A DNA stretch of 39,046 bases from Candidatus Afararchaeum irisae (lineage in GTDB: Archaea; Halobacteriota; Halobacteria; Halobacteriales; Afararchaeaceae). The stretch's first letter is position 1. The number at the start of each line of letters is the position of its first letter. Shown here piece by piece: positions 17,086 through 37,935 of the stretch. The position numbers and the translations under genes are program-made. The stretch spans positions 1-39,046 of the forward strand of contig JAXIOF010000116.1 in the NCBI GenBank assembly GCA_034190545.1, written 5' to 3'. The notes beneath the pieces are model-generated. The model was given only the letters and a program-made list of their open reading frames with translations, was not told where the DNA came from and did no database searches.

Positions 17086-17095
17086 ACGACCACGT

Positions 17096-17116
17096 CTCAA
17101 ACTCTACGAGTTTGAG
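17096..17116. repeat. Mini-hairpin, 9-bp arms, 3-base loop
   Basis: Perfect CTCAAACTC-TAC-GAGTTTGAG in the noncoding segment between the tnpB stop and the probable right end. It would be part of any TnpB guide-RNA scaffold made from this region. Confidence 0.8.
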
Positions 17117-17119
17117 GGC

Positions 17120-17140
17120 TCGGAAATCAGAGATTTCCGA
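17120..17140. repeat. Mini-hairpin containing the tnpB stop codon
   Basis: Perfect TCGGAAATC-AGA-GATTTCCGA. The last residues of TnpB (FGNL) and its stop codon (17127-17129) are encoded inside it. On the minus strand it reads GTTCGGAAATC-NNN-GATTTCCGAG, close to the copies at 18949-18969 and 37805-37823, which share the preceding GTTCG. Confidence 0.8.
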
Positions 17141-18485
17141 ACGCTCGTTGAGAATGGGGCTTGTCCATGTACTCAACCTCTAACCTCTCGGTGGAGGAAC
17201 TATCCTCACTCGGTTTCAGTGTACCGGACTTAAGGGCAAGTTGACACGTTGCCCGTCCGTCGTCTGACTTTTGCACACGACGGACGTGTTGCGAATCGTT
17301 AGATTCGCATACGTCTGCAAAGCTTTGCTTTGTAACATAACGAAGACCGACATTCTTAGAAGCGTTGTAGTCTGCGTCTACCGAATACCCACACTCTCGA
17401 CACTCAAAGTCGTGTTTCGTCCTGCGGTTACTTCGGTCGGTGTGTCCACAGCGAGAACAAGTCTGACTCGTGTACTCTGGATTCACCGACTCGACAGAAA
17501 CGCCGTACTCTTCGGCTTTGTACTCCACGAACGCGACGAACTGATTGAACGCCCACTGTTGGAACTTCGGGGCGTTCGAGATACGCTCACGGATGCCGTC
17601 AAGCTCCTCGAACACGATAGTAGAACAGTCGTGGCGTACAGCCTCTTCCACGACCTTATTAGTCCACTCGTGGAGCCTCTGGCTACTCCACCGGCTGAAA
17701 CGGTCGCCCATACGCTCTATGACCTCGTGAGCGCGACGTGAACCGTTCTGTTGGAGTGACGCACGTCTATCTTCGTACTCGTCGCGTTCGTGGTTGATAT
17801 GGTCGCTTGAACCTACGAACCGTCCCGTAGAGGTGACGGCGAAGCTACCTGTGCTGTTCAGATCTACACCGAGAACCGTTCGCAAATCTTCAATCTGCGA
17901 GCCATCGAAGCTCCCGCTTCGAGACGTTCCGCTCTCGGTTTCTCCTACGTCCTCTTCTTTCACGACTGAGATATGCAGGTAGTAGTCGCCGTCCCTGTGG
18001 TGTAGCGTTGCTTCTTTGCGTTCCCACTCTTCGGAAAGGTACTCTGTCTGAGGGTTGTCACCCGTTTCGTCTATCACGAAGTCGGCTTGTACGCGTCCGT
18101 CTACGGTTGCGAGAGTACAGCCGTCGTCGGTGTACGTAACGGTTCGGTAGTCGTAGGCGACGAACCAACTCTGGAAAGTGGGTTTCGTGGCTTGTTCACC
18201 CTCTTTCCACCGGCTGATTACCTGTTGTAGACTGTCTACGGCGTAGTCACGCGCCTTCTGTATCAGTCCGGTGTTGAGTCCCGTCCTTTCCTTGATGTCG
18301 TCGTAGGTCTGTTCGTGTAGCCACGTCTTGCGGGTGTCTATGTGACCGTCGTCGGTTCGGTTGTTCCACGCGTAGTCTACGGTGTACTGACATGCTTCTC
18401 GGAACGCCCTGAACGTCTCTCGTAGGCGTTCCTCGTCGGAGCCGTCAACGTCAAGCTTGACCTGTACAGTACGCCGTAGCTCCAT
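17127..18485 (-). CDS. tnpB: TnpB, RNA-guided nuclease of an IS1341-type element
   Basis: IS200/IS605-superfamily accessory protein; TnpB proteins are RNA-guided DNA nucleases that keep their element in the population. The 452-aa product has an N-terminal DNA/RNA-binding region, a RuvC-like nuclease with its three acids in GVDLNSTGS, FEELDGI and DADYNASKN, and the zinc finger CSRCGHTD...CRECG between the last two. All catalytic residues are intact. After YNASKNVGLRYV there is an unusual 17-residue segment (TKQSFADVCESNDSQHV) before RRVQKSDDG; its DNA consists of two mini-hairpins, so it looks like an in-frame insertion. No TnpA transposase is in the window, so the element could move only with help in trans. 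Confidence 0.92.
   Translation of the reverse strand: MELRRTVQVKLDVDGSDEERLRETFRAFREACQYTVDYAWNNRTDDGHIDTRKTWLHEQTYDDIKERTGLNTGLIQKARDYAVDSLQQVISRWKEGEQATKPTFQSWFVAYDYRTVTYTDDGCTLATVDGRVQADFVIDETGDNPQTEYLSEEWERKEATLHHRDGDYYLHISVVKEEDVGETESGTSRSGSFDGSQIEDLRTVLGVDLNSTGSFAVTSTGRFVGSSDHINHERDEYEDRRASLQQNGSRRAHEVIERMGDRFSRWSSQRLHEWTNKVVEEAVRHDCSTIVFEELDGIRERISNAPKFQQWAFNQFVAFVEYKAEEYGVSVESVNPEYTSQTCSRCGHTDRSNRRTKHDFECRECGYSVDADYNASKNVGLRYVTKQSFADVCESNDSQHVRRVQKSDDGRATCQLALKSGTLKPSEDSSSTERLEVEYMDKPHSQRAFGNL
17254..17286. repeat. 10-bp inverted repeat inside tnpB
   Basis: CGTCCGTCGT at 17254-17263 and its exact reverse complement at 17277-17286, with a 13-base spacer. It encodes part of the C-terminal tail just downstream of the two in-gene hairpins and may form RNA structure at the 3' end of the tnpB message. 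Confidence 0.6.
17290..17309. repeat. Mini-hairpin inside tnpB, 8-bp arms, 4-base loop
   Basis: TGCGAATC-GTTA-GATTCGCA, perfect arms, within the coding sequence for the unusual segment after the RuvC/zinc-finger region. It is the only clear member with a four-base loop. Confidence 0.75.
17318..17332. repeat. Mini-hairpin inside tnpB, 6-bp arms, 3-base loop
   Basis: CAAAGC-TTT-GCTTTG, eight bases from the preceding hairpin and also within the coding sequence. Together the two account for most of the 51 bases that seem to be inserted. Confidence 0.6.
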
Positions 18486-18560: not shown

Positions 18561-18581
18561 TGGTGGTCTATATCACCACCA
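18561..18581. promoter_or_regulatory. Palindrome TGGTGGT/ACCACCA overlapping a start codon
   Basis: Seven-base arms with a seven-base spacer (CTATATC). The right arm ends in the A of the ATG of the 47-aa gene. A protein bound here would block that gene and could act on the divergent tnpB promoter. Confidence 0.55.
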
Positions 18582-18724
18582 TGGCAGAAGTCAGAATACA
18601 AAATCCAGACATACACGAAGAGAAGACAGCAGATGGAAAGGGTCGTGTATATTTGGGCAAAGATTATGAGAACAGGAAGGTCAGAATAGTGGTGGAAGTA
18701 GTTGACGACGAACCGGAAGAGTAG
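18581..18724 (+). CDS. 47-aa AbrB-like protein beside tnpB
   Basis: Small acidic protein with a segment TADGKGRVYLGKDYENRKVRIVVEV resembling half of a SpoVT/AbrB swapped-hairpin DNA-binding fold. Similar short genes often accompany haloarchaeal TnpB elements. It is divergent from tnpB, with 95 bases between the starts that hold two palindromes, one covering its own start. An autoregulatory DNA-binding role is an inference. Its codon use is more A-rich than that of the housekeeping genes around it. Confidence 0.7.
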   Translation: MAEVRIQNPDIHEEKTADGKGRVYLGKDYENRKVRIVVEVVDDEPEE

Positions 18725-18741
18725 GAGTTGACGGGCTGTCC

Positions 18742-18758
18742 CAAAATCTCCGATTTTG
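18742..18758. repeat. Mini-hairpin H1
   Basis: CAAAATC-TCC-GATTTTG, 7-bp perfect arms, three-base loop. Confidence 0.8.
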
Positions 18759-18764
18759 TTACCG

Positions 18765-18783
18765 ACAAATTCTTCGAATTTGT
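18765..18783. repeat. Mini-hairpin H2
   Basis: ACAAATTC-TTC-GAATTTGT, 8-bp perfect arms, three-base loop. Same loop and core as the copy at 37782-37798. Confidence 0.8.
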
Positions 18784-18819
18784 GACTGTATCTCCACCCT
18801 ACTCACTCGCTACTCTCAT

Positions 18820-18840
18820 CTGTAAATCTTTGATTTACAG
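18820..18840. repeat. Mini-hairpin H3
   Basis: CTGTAAATC-TTT-GATTTACAG, 9-bp perfect arms, three-base loop. Confidence 0.85.
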
Positions 18841-18846
18841 GGCATG

Positions 18847-18867
18847 ACGAGACGCGAAGCGTCTCGT
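18847..18867. repeat. Mini-hairpin H4
   Basis: ACGAGACGC-GAA-GCGTCTCGT, 9-bp perfect arms, three-base loop. Confidence 0.85.
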
Positions 18868-18873
18868 TGCAAC

Positions 18874-18894
18874 CGAAAACGCGTAGCGTTTTCG
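18874..18894. repeat. Mini-hairpin H5
   Basis: CGAAAACGC-GTA-GCGTTTTCG, 9-bp perfect arms, three-base loop, seven bases from H4. Confidence 0.85.
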
Positions 18895-18901
18895 AGGACA
18901 C

Positions 18902-18918
18902 GCGAATCCAAGATTTGC
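18902..18918. repeat. Mini-hairpin H6, one wobble
   Basis: GCGAATC-CAA-GATTTGC, 7-bp arms in which one pair is G-T. It would still pair as RNA. Confidence 0.65.
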
Positions 18919-18926
18919 TCCCGTCC

Positions 18927-18943
18927 CGAGATCTCCGATCTCG
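18927..18943. repeat. Mini-hairpin H7
   Basis: CGAGATC-TCC-GATCTCG, 7-bp perfect arms, three-base loop; flanking bases CCC and CGGG extend the pairing with a bulge. Confidence 0.8.
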
Positions 18944-18948
18944 CGGGC

Positions 18949-18969
18949 TCGCTAATCGGAGATTAGCGA
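18949..18969. repeat. Mini-hairpin H8
   Basis: TCGCTAATC-GGA-GATTAGCGA, 9-bp perfect arms, three-base loop. Followed by ACGGTTCGTAGAG, comparable to ACGCTCGTTGAG after the hairpin at the tnpB stop. Confidence 0.85.
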
Positions 18970-19038
18970 ACGGTTCGTAGAGGGTGGAGTCTTAGCCCTG
19001 CCAAAAGATAAAATACTCCGACCACGTATACGGATTAG

Positions 19039-31629: not shown

Positions 31630-34600
31630 TTGTTTCTTTACGGTGATAATATCTCCGACTCCTCCCCTTCTCACTCCCAGAAACAGACAGAAGACAGCCG
31701 TGTCGACGCCGACACAGACGTTGACGCCGACGCCGACGGTCAGATCGACGACGCCCACGTCCTCGAACTCCTAGAGCCCTCAGTAAGGGACTGGTGGGTC
31801 GACGAGTTCGGCGAGTACACAGATATCAACAACGGCTACTTCACACCGCCCCAGAAGGAAGCTGTCCCCCTGATACACGAGGGGGAGAACGCACTCATAG
31901 CGTCGCCGACGGGCAGCGGAAAATGTGTTACTCCCGATACCCCACTCTTAGTAGACGAAGACGGTGAGAGCCGGGTACTCAGAGCCTCGGATCTCCTCGA
32001 CAAGACCGAGACTAAGGTAGCCGACGTCGACCACGACGGTGAGCTACACACGAGTAGCATAAGCTCCTACTCTCTCACAGACGACGGCGAGATAGAGACG
32101 AAGGACGCACTCGTCTACTCCGAGACCTACTCGGGAGACGTATACCGGCTCAAGACCGTCTATGGAAGGGAGGTCGAGCTAACACCCGACCATCCTCTTC
32201 TCGTCGAGACCCGCGACGGCTCCGAGTGGAGACGAGCCGAGGAGGTCGATGAAGGGGACAGGATCGGTGTCCCGAGGCGTATAGATCTACCAGAGGAGAC
32301 ACAGACACCCCACCTCGAAACCGCCGTCCGAAAGCTCAGACAGAGATTCGAAGACGCCGTCACGTCTGACGAGTCGGAGAGTCTCAAAATACGTCTGCGG
32401 GAAGCCGATGGAGTCTCCGACTTATCTGAGAAGGATCTGAGACGTCTCCTGTGTCTCGCGCGCCTTACTATTACCGAGGCTGCCGAGACTCTCTCAGTGA
32501 GTCCTGCTACCGTACACAGACGTGTCACGTCACCTGAGAGCTTTGACGACGATGACCTGGGTCTTCTGAGACTGATAGAGGAGAGGTTCGAGCCTCTGGG
32601 TGAGACGGAGGTTGCCGTCGTGATGAACAACGGTGCTGTTTCGAGGTTCGAGTACCCCGAGACGGTAGACGCCGAGGTCGCGAGACTCGCTGCTTTCGTC
32701 CTCGCCGAGGGGTTCATAGGCGACTACGACAGGAGCGGCATGGTATCTGTCTCCCAGAGTAAGAGAACCGATCTTCTCGAAGAGGTAAGACGTACTGCGG
32801 AGGAGAGGTTCGGTGTCGTCTTCGAACTCAAGGAGGGTAGCTCTAAGGACTACGCAGTAAACGACTCGGCTTTCGCTGTCTTCTTCTCAGAGCTCCTAGA
32901 CATAGACACGGGAGAGGGAAGGGAAGTCGATCTACCCGACTGGATTCTCAACGCTCCGAGAGACGTCAAGAGGGCTTTCGTCTCGACCTTCCTCTCACTC
33001 GAAGCCGAGGTCAGAAACGACGAGGTACGTCTGACACAGGCTAACGAGATGAAGATAGAACAGATCAACTACCTCCTGATGTCGTTCGGGATACTCGCGT
33101 CACGCCGAACTGTCTCGAAACGCGCCACTAACTCCGGGATGGAGAAGAGGGAGTACACGACCTTAACCGTCAGACGGAAGCAGAGTCTCCGGCGTCTCGT
33201 CTCTGAGTTCGACATACGCCATCCCAACACAGCCTCAGCCGAGAGACACGCAGTAGGCGACGGCTCGGGATACATAACACAGAGAGGCTTGGACAAGCTG
33301 GATTCGGCTCTCGACTCTCCCCCCGACGGCACAGACCCCGACCTTGAGGAAACTGTGGGGGAGATGCGTGACTCGAACGTTGTCTGGCTCGAAGTCACGG
33401 AGAAGGAGACCGTCGACTACGACGGCGAGATAATCGATCTCAACGTCCCGGATCTCCACAACTTCGTCGGTGGTTCGGGAGGGATGTACCTACACAACAC
33501 TCTCGCCTCCTTTACATCGATCATAAACGAGCTATTCAGGAAGAGCAAGGAAGACGAACTCGAAAACTCGGTCTACTGTCTCTACGTCTCGCCCCTCAAG
33601 AGCCTCGCCAACGACATACATCGGAACCTCGAAGTTCCTCTTGAGGGCATAGACGAGGTCGCGCGTGAGAACGGACACGACCCCGCCGAGATACGCCACG
33701 CTATACGCCACGGAGACACGAGCGACTACGAGCGTCAGAAGATGCTCGACGAGACTCCCCATATCCTCAACACGACCCCAGAGACCCTCGGGATACTCCT
33801 CAACTCGCCCAAGTTCCGTGAGAAGCTCAGGACTGTCGAGTACGTCATAGTCGACGAGATACATTCGCTCGCCGACAACAAGCGGGGCGTCCATCTCTCT
33901 GTCTCTCTCGAACGTCTCGAAAACCTGTGTGAGACTTCACCGACACGTATAGGCTGTTCGGCGACAGTCGAGCCTCTCGAAGACATCGCCGACTTCCTCG
34001 TGGGATACGACGAGGCGGGAGGCGAACCGCGCGATTCGACCGTCGTCGACACACGTTTCGTACGTGACTTCGACATACAGCTCCGGTGTCCGACCGACGA
34101 CCTCATACACACACCCAACGACGAGATACAGGACGCCTTCTACCAACAGCTACACTCGATGGTACAGGATCACGACAACACTCTGATATTCACGAATACG
34201 CGGTCGGGCGCGGAGAGGGTTCTGCACAACCTACGTGACAGGTTCGACGTCTACGACGACTCGAACTCGGGCTGCCACCACGGCTCGGTCGGAAAGGAGG
34301 GGAGAAAACAGATCGAGGAGGATCTTAAGTCGGGCGACATCGACTTCGTGACCTCGTCTACGTCTCTCGAACTCGGCGTCGACATGCCCCATCTCGACTT
34401 AGTCGTTCAGGTCGGCTCGCCGAAGTCGGTAGCGGGTCTCCTTCAGCGCATAGGAAGGGCGGGACACTCCCTCGGAGAGACAGTCGAGGGACGTGTGATA
34501 GCACTCGACCGCGACGAACTCGTAGAGTGTGCGGTGATGCTCAAGAAGGCGGAGGAGGGCTTCGTCGACCGCGTCTTCGTTCCCGAGAAGCCACAGGACG

Positions 34601-35934
34601 TCCTCGCTCAGCACGTCTACGGAATGGCGATCAACTCAGTCCGCCCCGAGCGCGAGGTCGTCGAGACGGTAAGAAGGGCATACCCCTACCGCAACTACAA
34701 ACGTGACGACTGGGAGTCTCTGATGAGGTACCTCACTGCCGACTACGAGGGGATGGAAGACCGCTCGATATACGCCAAGGTCTGGAGGGACGAGAACGAT
34801 GACGGCACCACGGTGATAGGCAAACGCGGAAAGATGGCGCGTGTCATCTACATGACCAACATAGGCACTATACCCGACTCGTTCACGATCGACGTCTTCG
34901 TGAGAGGAACCGACGAGTGGGTCGGCGACCTCGACGAGGGGTACCTCGACAACCTCGACAAGGGCGACGTCTTCGTTCTGGGAGGACAGAACTACGAGTT
35001 CAAGTACCGCAGGGGATCGAAGGTCTACGTCGATCCCACGACTGCCTCGCCGACAGTCCCTTCGTGGTTCTCCGAGCGTCTTCCGCTGTCGTACGACCTC
35101 GGACGTGAGATACTCAGGTTCAAACGCCAGACTGTCGAACGCCTACACGACGAAGACGCTGACGCGCGCGACTGGCTCTCGTCGTACCCCATTGACCCGA
35201 ACTCGGTCGAGAGCATACTCCGTATATTCGACGAACAGCTACGTTACGCGAGCGAACTCAGCGTCTCGACCGACGAACGTTTCGTCGTCGAACAGGTCGT
35301 AGACACAGACGCCGGGAGACGTCATTACTACTTCCACTCGAACTACGGGAGGAAGTTCAACGACGGTCTCTCACGGATAGTCGCCCACGAGGCTTCACGC
35401 CGCATAGAGACCAACGTCAAGATCTCGGTCGCAGACAACGGCTTCGCTGTCTCGATGCCTATGAACCGGAAGATCGACGTCTACGACGTCATAGACTCCG
35501 TGAATCCCGACAACGCCGAAGAGATACTCAGGGACGCACTCGACGGAAGCGAGCTACTCAAACGGTACTTCCGTATAAACGCGACGCGTTCGCTGATGAT
35601 ACTCAAGAACTACAAGGGCAACACCAAGAGCGCTAAGAGACAGCAGGTCTCCTCCGACATGCTGATACATTACGCCGAGGATCTCGACGGTTTCGTCGTA
35701 TTAGAGGAGACCTACAGGGAGGTCACCGAGGACAAGCTCGACATAGACCACATACAGGACATACTCGGCGAGATACACGACGGCGACGTGGATGTCGTCG
35801 GAATCGAGCCCGAGAGTCCGACGCCGATGGCTTTCGGAATCGCGTCACTCGCTGCGAGCGACGTCGTCCTCGCCGAGGACAAGTCGAAGGTCTTAGAGGA
35901 GTTCCACGACAGGGTGATGGAGGAGATCGACTAG
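31630..35934 (+). CDS. lhr: Lhr-like ATP-dependent helicase interrupted by an intein
   Basis: Superfamily-2 helicase of the Lhr/Ski2 type, acting in DNA repair and recombination. The 1434-aa precursor consists of an acidic N-terminal tail, the helicase N-part to SPTGSGK (residue 98), a 525-aa intein, and the rest starting TLASFTSIINELF. After splicing a 909-aa enzyme results, normal for Lhr core proteins. Motifs: Walker A split by the intein, DEIHSLADNKRG (motif II), SATVEP (motif III), TNTRSGAERVLHNL, and TSSTSLELGVD...QRIGRAGHS (motifs V-VI). The start is uncertain: TTG at 31630 is the longest option and homology only begins near residue 42. The end overlaps thrB by four bases tail to tail. 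Confidence 0.88.
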   Translation: MFLYGDNISDSSPSHSQKQTEDSRVDADTDVDADADGQIDDAHVLELLEPSVRDWWVDEFGEYTDINNGYFTPPQKEAVPLIHEGENALIASPTGSGKCVTPDTPLLVDEDGESRVLRASDLLDKTETKVADVDHDGELHTSSISSYSLTDDGEIETKDALVYSETYSGDVYRLKTVYGREVELTPDHPLLVETRDGSEWRRAEEVDEGDRIGVPRRIDLPEETQTPHLETAVRKLRQRFEDAVTSDESESLKIRLREADGVSDLSEKDLRRLLCLARLTITEAAETLSVSPATVHRRVTSPESFDDDDLGLLRLIEERFEPLGETEVAVVMNNGAVSRFEYPETVDAEVARLAAFVLAEGFIGDYDRSGMVSVSQSKRTDLLEEVRRTAEERFGVVFELKEGSSKDYAVNDSAFAVFFSELLDIDTGEGREVDLPDWILNAPRDVKRAFVSTFLSLEAEVRNDEVRLTQANEMKIEQINYLLMSFGILASRRTVSKRATNSGMEKREYTTLTVRRKQSLRRLVSEFDIRHPNTASAERHAVGDGSGYITQRGLDKLDSALDSPPDGTDPDLEETVGEMRDSNVVWLEVTEKETVDYDGEIIDLNVPDLHNFVGGSGGMYLHNTLASFTSIINELFRKSKEDELENSVYCLYVSPLKSLANDIHRNLEVPLEGIDEVARENGHDPAEIRHAIRHGDTSDYERQKMLDETPHILNTTPETLGILLNSPKFREKLRTVEYVIVDEIHSLADNKRGVHLSVSLERLENLCETSPTRIGCSATVEPLEDIADFLVGYDEAGGEPRDSTVVDTRFVRDFDIQLRCPTDDLIHTPNDEIQDAFYQQLHSMVQDHDNTLIFTNTRSGAERVLHNLRDRFDVYDDSNSGCHHGSVGKEGRKQIEEDLKSGDIDFVTSSTSLELGVDMPHLDLVVQVGSPKSVAGLLQRIGRAGHSLGETVEGRVIALDRDELVECAVMLKKAEEGFVDRVFVPEKPQDVLAQHVYGMAINSVRPEREVVETVRRAYPYRNYKRDDWESLMRYLTADYEGMEDRSIYAKVWRDENDDGTTVIGKRGKMARVIYMTNIGTIPDSFTIDVFVRGTDEWVGDLDEGYLDNLDKGDVFVLGGQNYEFKYRRGSKVYVDPTTASPTVPSWFSERLPLSYDLGREILRFKRQTVERLHDEDADARDWLSSYPIDPNSVESILRIFDEQLRYASELSVSTDERFVVEQVVDTDAGRRHYYFHSNYGRKFNDGLSRIVAHEASRRIETNVKISVADNGFAVSMPMNRKIDVYDVIDSVNPDNAEEILRDALDGSELLKRYFRINATRSLMILKNYKGNTKSAKRQQVSSDMLIHYAEDLDGFVVLEETYREVTEDKLDIDHIQDILGEIHDGDVDVVGIEPESPTPMAFGIASLAASDVVLAEDKSKVLEEFHDRVMEEID
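31924..33498 (+). other. Intein in the helicase Walker A motif
   Basis: 525 residues between lysine 98 and threonine 624 of the precursor. Splicing residues are all there: Cys at the first position (CVTPDTPLLV), block B ELTPDHPLLV with its TxxH, a C-terminal block ending HNFVGGSGGMYLHN with penultimate His and final Asn, and Thr as the following residue. A LAGLIDADG-type endonuclease core follows as LAAFVLAEGFIGD (about residues 352-367) and a divergent second motif AFVSTFLSLEAEV (about 448-460) that lacks the usual glycine. Between the splicing half and the endonuclease lies a predicted helix-turn-helix (about residues 266-305, LTITEAAETLSVSPATVHRRV). Confidence 0.92.
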
Positions 35935-37762: not shown

Positions 37763-37781
37763 GAGGCGGATGCCCCCGTCC

Positions 37782-37798
37782 CGAATTCTTCGAATTCG
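37782..37798. repeat. Mini-hairpin, 7-bp arms, 3-base loop
   Basis: CGAATTC-TTC-GAATTCG, upstream of the second tnpB and next to the broken glutaredoxin-like gene. Confidence 0.75.
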
Positions 37799-37804
37799 TG
37801 TGCG

Positions 37805-37823
37805 CGCAAATCGAAGATTTGCG
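37805..37823. repeat. Mini-hairpin, 8-bp arms, 3-base loop
   Basis: CGCAAATC-GAA-GATTTGCG. Followed by AACGACC; on the minus strand it reads GTTCGCAAATC-NNN-GATTTGCG, matching the pattern of the copies at the first tnpB stop and at 18949-18969. Confidence 0.8.
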
Positions 37824-37935
37824 AACGACCCTTGAGGTCGGGGAGGAAGCCGACACCTGATGCCACAAACCACGCTACGATGGCAGGCCGACTCCCAGAC
37901 ATATAAGTAACACCAGCCATATATGTGAAACCACA

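Follow-up and report, generated by a model that had tools for sequence, protein, structure and literature searches.

The window analyzed here comprises positions 1 to 39,046 (forward strand) of contig JAXIOF010000116.1 from Candidatus Afararchaeum irisae (Halobacteriales; assembly GCA_034190545.1). It carries a TnpB gene (positions 17127..18485, minus strand; PF07282, 93 bits), a small plus-strand open reading frame (ORF) of 47 aa (18581..18724), and, beside the latter, an array of eight short hairpins at 18742-18969. The small ORF may encode an AbrB-like protein, as judged by inspection only; a small ORF of this kind accompanies the palindromic element both in the window and at two loci (L074 and L078) of the genome taken as that of Halorutilus salinus (G009). 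Pairs of hairpins are also found at the right end of the TnpB element (17091..17147, minus strand, a class A unit; 69 bits with the covariance model R1) and upstream of a second TnpB gene (37775..37831, minus strand; 61.5 bits with R1). A hairpin at the contig edge (1..19), CAAAAAGC.TCT.GCTTTTTG, has the same arms as those at the end of an IS200 tnpA element on contigs C31 and C5 of the same genome. The window also contains a large helicase-like ORF of 1434 aa (31630-35934, plus strand) with an apparent intein in its P-loop (SGKCVTPDTP...GMYLHNTLAS), recognized by reading only. An Rfam search of the window returned zero matches.

The array matches its description in the first-pass annotation: seven of the hairpins are perfect, and the remaining one (18902..18918, plus strand; GCGAATC.CAA.GATTTGC) includes a single G-T pair. 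All eight have arms of 7-9 bp and a loop of exactly 3 nt that is preceded by C and followed by G. The first two perfect hairpins (18742-18758 and 18765-18783, linker TTACCG) form unit 1 (18740..18789, plus strand), whose span contains the second copy of a CTGT direct repeat, the first copy being located at 18736-18739; the R1 match to this unit extends over 18733-18789, and its homologues are found elsewhere in the genome (C2:195 and C39:38093). The other six hairpins lie between the inverted pair CTCCACCCT (18792-18800) and AGGGTGGAG (18981-18989), which is also as previously noted. These two sequences are the arms of a host palindrome (18792..18989), and the right ends of IS605-type elements show the same kind of inverted pair. 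Inside the palindrome, a run of three perfect hairpins (18820-18840, 18847-18867, and 18874-18894, plus strand; linkers ggcatg and tgcaac) recurs on contigs C25, C43, and C75, and the last two perfect hairpins (18927-18943 and 18949-18969, with the linker gcccg on the minus strand) make up a class A double-hairpin unit (18920..18976, minus strand) that scores 75.5 bits with R1 and is included in alignment A1.

Triloop hairpins are overrepresented in a sample of this genome, so the refuting condition named in the first-pass annotation, a count no higher than in random sequence, does not hold there. In the four sampled contigs, chosen without regard to hairpins (374,718 bp, or 20% of the genome), loop-3 hairpins whose arms are perfect and 8 bp or longer number 56; each of the other loop lengths between 0 and 15 gives 5-22, and order-2 Markov sequence gives 11. 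A loop length of 3 is the only clearly enriched one in these 375 kb. C-G closure is seen in 81 of the 97 loop-3 hairpins of this sample that have arms of at least 7 bp. About 809 kb of the genome contain 221 hairpins in 77 groups. Where the linkers of an array could be assigned to classes, inner linkers that join two hairpins (gcca, gcccg, tcgcaca, and their variants) alternate with outer linkers that contain ACG, and 10 of the 12 arrays with at least two classed inner linkers have a single orientation (table read by eye). The repeating unit is not a single hairpin but a pair of hairpins with a short linker, ∼40-57 bp in length and often arranged head-to-tail. Each such element consists of two hairpins that have perfect arms of 7-10 bp and C-NNN-G triloops and are separated by a linker of 2-8 nt, and the two classes of units can be aligned without gaps over 57 columns (A1) and 63 columns (A2).

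The R1 model, whose E-values are rough, has matches in 219 of the 295 Halobacteriales genomes. Only seven matching genomes from other lineages were detected in a phylum-wide sample; all seven encode mcrA, and five come from one family of small genomes that probably represents Methanonatronarchaeia. The units of these methanogens are 39-45 bp long, contain 36-44% G+C, and follow the same triloop rule. Units are also carried by replicons of cultured isolates, including Halobacterium salinarum pNRC200, Natronomonas pharaonis PL131, and a Salinigranum plasmid, and Haloferax mediterranei pHME132 carries an array. A search of phage records found no units. A pattern scan of named genomes identified 12 stretches, in Halobacteriales metagenome-assembled genomes (MAGs), Halorutilus, a Euryarchaeota MAG, and three bacterial MAGs; the contigs of the last three (L140, L141, and L147) match the half-palindrome pattern, possibly through chance or contamination.

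The double hairpin is an insertion element, and its mobility is deduced from comparisons between genomes; empty sites are found in Halorutilus and in genes for an SDR protein and an AstE-like protein. In the Halorutilus genome, the site near the small ORF reads GGGCTGTATCTCCACCCTACTCACTccattcggtcgttcgttGAGGGTGGAGTCTTAGCCC and is free of such hairpins; unit 1 is missing, and the sequence there is GGGCTGTATCTCC. Relative to this genome, the window has an additional 50 bp at CTGT, with CTGT doubled, as well as the six-hairpin array within the palindrome, whose CTCCACCCT and AGGGTGGAG arms in Halorutilus flank 26 hairpin-free nucleotides. The inverted pair is part of the host element, which is empty in Halorutilus; the first-pass annotation had overlooked this relationship, along with the paired nature of the unit and its insertion with a short duplication. 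The SDR gene of one genome (G126) contains a 57-bp in-frame unit that is missing from 11 congeners. The AstE-like gene is filled in three genomes by a 54-bp in-frame unit with an exact GACG duplication and is empty, with a single GACG, in nine congeners. In both copies of the tnpA gene, on contigs C31 and C5, two double hairpins of 45 bp and 51 bp interrupt the FVWCPKYR motif; the tnpA of another genome (G038) has this motif unbroken. The two in-frame inserts shared by these copies (L022 and L023) have identical arms and partly different loops; an insert loop in the C31 copy creates a TAG stop at a place where the frame of the C5 copy is open. The TnpB gene of the window itself contains a degenerate in-frame unit (17873..17928, plus strand; 42 bits with R1) that adds ∼48 bp; the encoded peptide TSRSGSFDGSQIEDLR precedes TVLGVDLN and is also present in one paralogue (L026) and missing from another (L041). 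A TnpB encoded on contig C87 (L036) may have a further in-frame insert, located elsewhere in the gene (HYRDVRQTKSDEPSRTNSSGDGRYYLH).

Insertion is accompanied by a target duplication of 3-4 bp. Direct repeats of this length flank 14 isolated methanogen units versus 2.8 expected from shuffled pairings (p=0.0005), and in Halobacteriales other than the window's genome there are 10 cases of 4-mer direct repeats versus 4.8 in shuffled pairings (p=0.0015). In the window's genome, the excess is weak overall, and at some of its sites the duplication is inexact, limited to CG or AG. Joining of flanks within this genome in search of empty sites yielded mostly array rearrangements and few usable comparisons. 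The idea that the arms are copied from the host target came from a DnaK gene (L125), where the flank and the arm share GACGTTGACGAATC; it received no support at the SDR, AstE-like, and tnpA sites, GACGTTGACGAATC is also a normal start of the unit, and the DnaK comparison is not clean.

The covariation of the arms and the statement that mainly the architecture is kept, both made on the basis of the window, hold up on larger sets of units, the latter across Halobacteriales and methanogens. In alignment A1, which comprises 16 units picked as perfect, 43 cells are changed on both sides (versus 11.3 in shuffles) and none on one side only; its covariation score of 0.42, compared with 0.12, was reached in 0 of 500 shuffles. 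Alignment A2 has 21 two-sided cell changes and one G-U. Paired changes in both alignments are far above shuffled and slid controls, with the ratio of paired to unpaired changes being inflated by the ascertainment of both sets as perfect. A wider collection of 69 units, gathered with the covariance model, contains 127 hairpins, of which 116 have all seven inner pairs intact; mismatches occupy 14 cells (3 GT/TG, 5 AC/CA, and 6 other), with no excess of wobble (G-U) pairs. In 38 of the 64 paired changes in A1 and A2, the purine switches sides, a change that cannot pass via a G-U pair. C-G closure is found in 125 of the 127 hairpins of the wider set, and their loops, read in unit orientation, are R-N-A in 60 cases and T-N-Y in 53, where chance would give about one quarter; in methanogens, the respective counts are 30 and 31 of 66. 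Such similar counts mean that the loop nearly always reads C-(purine)NA-G on one strand and C-TN(pyrimidine)-G on the other, with neither strand preferred. C-GNA-G triloops in DNA form unusually stable mini-hairpins, and the GCGAAGC mini-hairpin has reportedly been used in published work. The strand symmetry of the loops fits a DNA hairpin or cruciform better than a single recognized RNA strand.

Changes that follow insertion are documented in one gene, which supplies all the evidence of in situ decay. The AstE-like insertion inherited by three species has since acquired five substitutions (T to C and A to G in G478; A to G twice and A to C in G486), one of which may be in the loop, and none has been compensated. 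At this gene, therefore, pairing did not recover once the unit was in place, and the perfect hairpins and paired drift seen between copies would have to originate during copying or mobilization. The first-pass annotation had asked whether the structure is kept by selection or produced by copying one arm from the other, which was the right question; the lack of a G-U excess, the strand-symmetric loops, and the one-sided, uncompensated decay favor the view that the arms of an element become complementary as it is being copied or moved, and at that step templating and selection both fit.

The TnpB connection stood less well: proximity of the further hairpins to TnpB genes is above chance, but in an unselected sample only a minority of the clusters (3 of ∼13) adjoin tnpB, and not all, as had been stated for the window. 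Within the genome, 34 matches to tnpB and three to tnpA were identified. Units are found within IS200/IS605 ends, tnpA, and tnpB, and several clusters sit in IS605-type elements, at their palindromic right end; relatives of these elements that lack hairpin units exist in the same genome. The link to TnpB is mainly a matter of the choice of landing site. A right-end hairpin is reported for omega RNAs of Halobacterium (PMC12558985); ends of this type may therefore accommodate inserts. In two TnpB families (L112, L117, L122, and L128; L113, L118, L119, and L120), members from different genomes share the position of a unit close to the 3' end; its arms are conserved, and its loops vary freely. At odds with a simple account of paired drift between copies, the arms of some homologous IS families are identical despite ∼30% divergence of the flanks, although the search that showed this required exact arms.

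The best explanation of these observations, to which we assign a probability of about two-thirds, is a non-autonomous mobile double-hairpin element whose arm complementarity is set in a folded stage of mobilization. In the window's genome, IS200/IS605 elements would offer safe landing sites in their palindromic ends, where the element builds up head-to-tail; it also lies singly elsewhere, even in frame inside genes. It would move via a stage in which each hairpin folds, either as a single strand or as a cruciform, and the complementarity of the arms would be fixed during that stage, most likely by one arm templating the other (through snap-back synthesis or repair of hairpin mismatches) or, alternatively, by mobilization of well-paired copies only. 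The arms would then drift in pairs from copy to copy, and each inserted copy would decay as ordinary DNA. Templated arm copying and paired-only mobilization both fit the data, with the purine-swapping changes and strand-symmetric loops leaning toward templating; both the folded intermediate and the templated copying are inferred. A more specific version, which is tentative and falls short of even odds, is a transposable element with architecture as its heritable content: in Halobacteria and halophilic methanogens alike, each round of copying would rewrite one arm from the other by snap-back templating, letting the sequence drift in pairs while the two C-NNN-G triloop hairpins are transmitted intact.

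Perfect pairing could also arise if a transposase or nuclease accepted only well-paired triloop hairpins, with independent sequential mutations, no templating, and selection of compensated variants at mobilization. Such an enzyme would likewise account for both the perfection between copies and the decay after insertion, and hairpin recognition is the rule for the IS200/IS605 TnpA, whose substrates are single-stranded DNA hairpins. However, one-sided intermediates should then be visible, and changes passable via G-U or via tolerated mismatches should be favored, whereas purine-swapping changes are in the majority and mismatches are few, which makes this account rather unlikely. The suggestion that the hairpins themselves are IS200/IS605 ends, similar to PATEs and moved by the Y1 transposase TnpA, draws on the same substrate preference and on the clustering of units in IS605-type ends, where they flank or interrupt tnpA. 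It appears improbable, as PATEs and IS605-type elements insert without the target duplication (PMC3119063) that accompanies the double-hairpin units, many units reside in host genes far from any IS, and the presence of units does not track that of tnpA, which was found in 10 of the 24 relatives with units and in 6 of the 15 without (39 relatives), although old copies could outlive the enzyme.

Still less probable is the maintenance of the arrays by selection as functional RNA structures, such as omega-RNA stems or terminators. The right-end hairpin of Halobacterium omega RNAs (PMC12558985) and the conserved 3' position of the unit in the two TnpB families would agree with it, but the G-U excess is absent, the loops are equally frequent in both orientations, the units lie in either orientation relative to genes and inside the SDR, AstE-like, and tnpA genes, and the inherited AstE-like copy decays uncompensated. 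Snap-back chimeras produced during library construction or assembly might be suspected in a draft genome of 117 contigs with several arrays at contig ends; with the same units in complete isolate replicons and the same site filled in three related genomes, we count an artifact as already refuted.

Among the known systems, the double-hairpin elements of fungal and sponge mitochondria (PMC10085805, PMC2800124) have several features in common with the archaeal units: two adjacent hairpins, a size of tens of bp, dispersal in spacers and genes, variable sequence, occurrence in tandem groups, and presumed mobility. The archaeal units differ in that they reside on archaeal chromosomes, adhere strictly to C-NNN-G triloops, insert in frame into conserved protein genes, and make 3-4 bp target duplications; flanking duplications were reported to be lacking in Allomyces (PMC2800124). 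Haloarchaeal PATEs and IS605-type elements are also palindromic and occupy the same genomic neighborhood, but PATEs have one palindrome near each end and no target duplication (PMC3119063), whereas the double-hairpin units are accompanied by a duplication and lie both inside such ends and far away from them. SMR-A of Haloquadratum is another very small element that lands, by an enigmatic mobilization, within the near-terminal palindromes of IS605-type elements and PATEs; unlike the double-hairpin units, which are 40-57 bp long, have variable arms, generate duplications, and do not land exclusively in such palindromes, it is ∼110 bp long, has prominent inverted terminal repeats and highly conserved sequence, and makes no duplication (PMC3119063). 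REP sequences, REPINs, and CGTC-tagged palindromes are similarly short stem-loops with small loops that form dimers and are in some cases intragenic, and the CGTC families likewise have no known transposase (PMC3733652, PMC3116915). However, the loops of CGTC repeats are 4-5 nt long (PMC3733652, PMC3116915) rather than 3, and the archaeal units lack a constant tag of the GTAG/CGTC kind, their flanks being target-derived and variable by site and genome (GACG in Halobacteriales; TGT, TAT, and ATGA in methanogens). The target duplication is reminiscent of MITEs, and since the two hairpins have related arms, the ends of the unit are loosely inverted. Rickettsia palindromic elements also insert in frame into protein genes; compared by description alone, they are set apart by their greater length and by sequence that is kept within a family. 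In its behavior, the archaeal unit resembles the mitochondrial double-hairpin elements and, inside genes, the Rickettsia palindromic elements.

No earlier description of such elements in archaea was found in the literature searched, the coverage of which excludes most subscription journals. The double-hairpin units would extend to archaea a kind of tiny mobile DNA that has so far been described mainly from mitochondria, and their presence in cultured model organisms (Halobacterium salinarum, Haloferax mediterranei, and Natronomonas pharaonis) makes them amenable to experiment. Clean pairs of filled and empty sites make it testable how hairpin elements move and whether arm covariation arises by one templated step or by selection. 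In-frame insertion adds peptides of 15-19 residues and would be a route to new protein sequence. The units also carry a warning: stems can covary perfectly where there is no functional RNA, although such covariation is usually taken to prove one.
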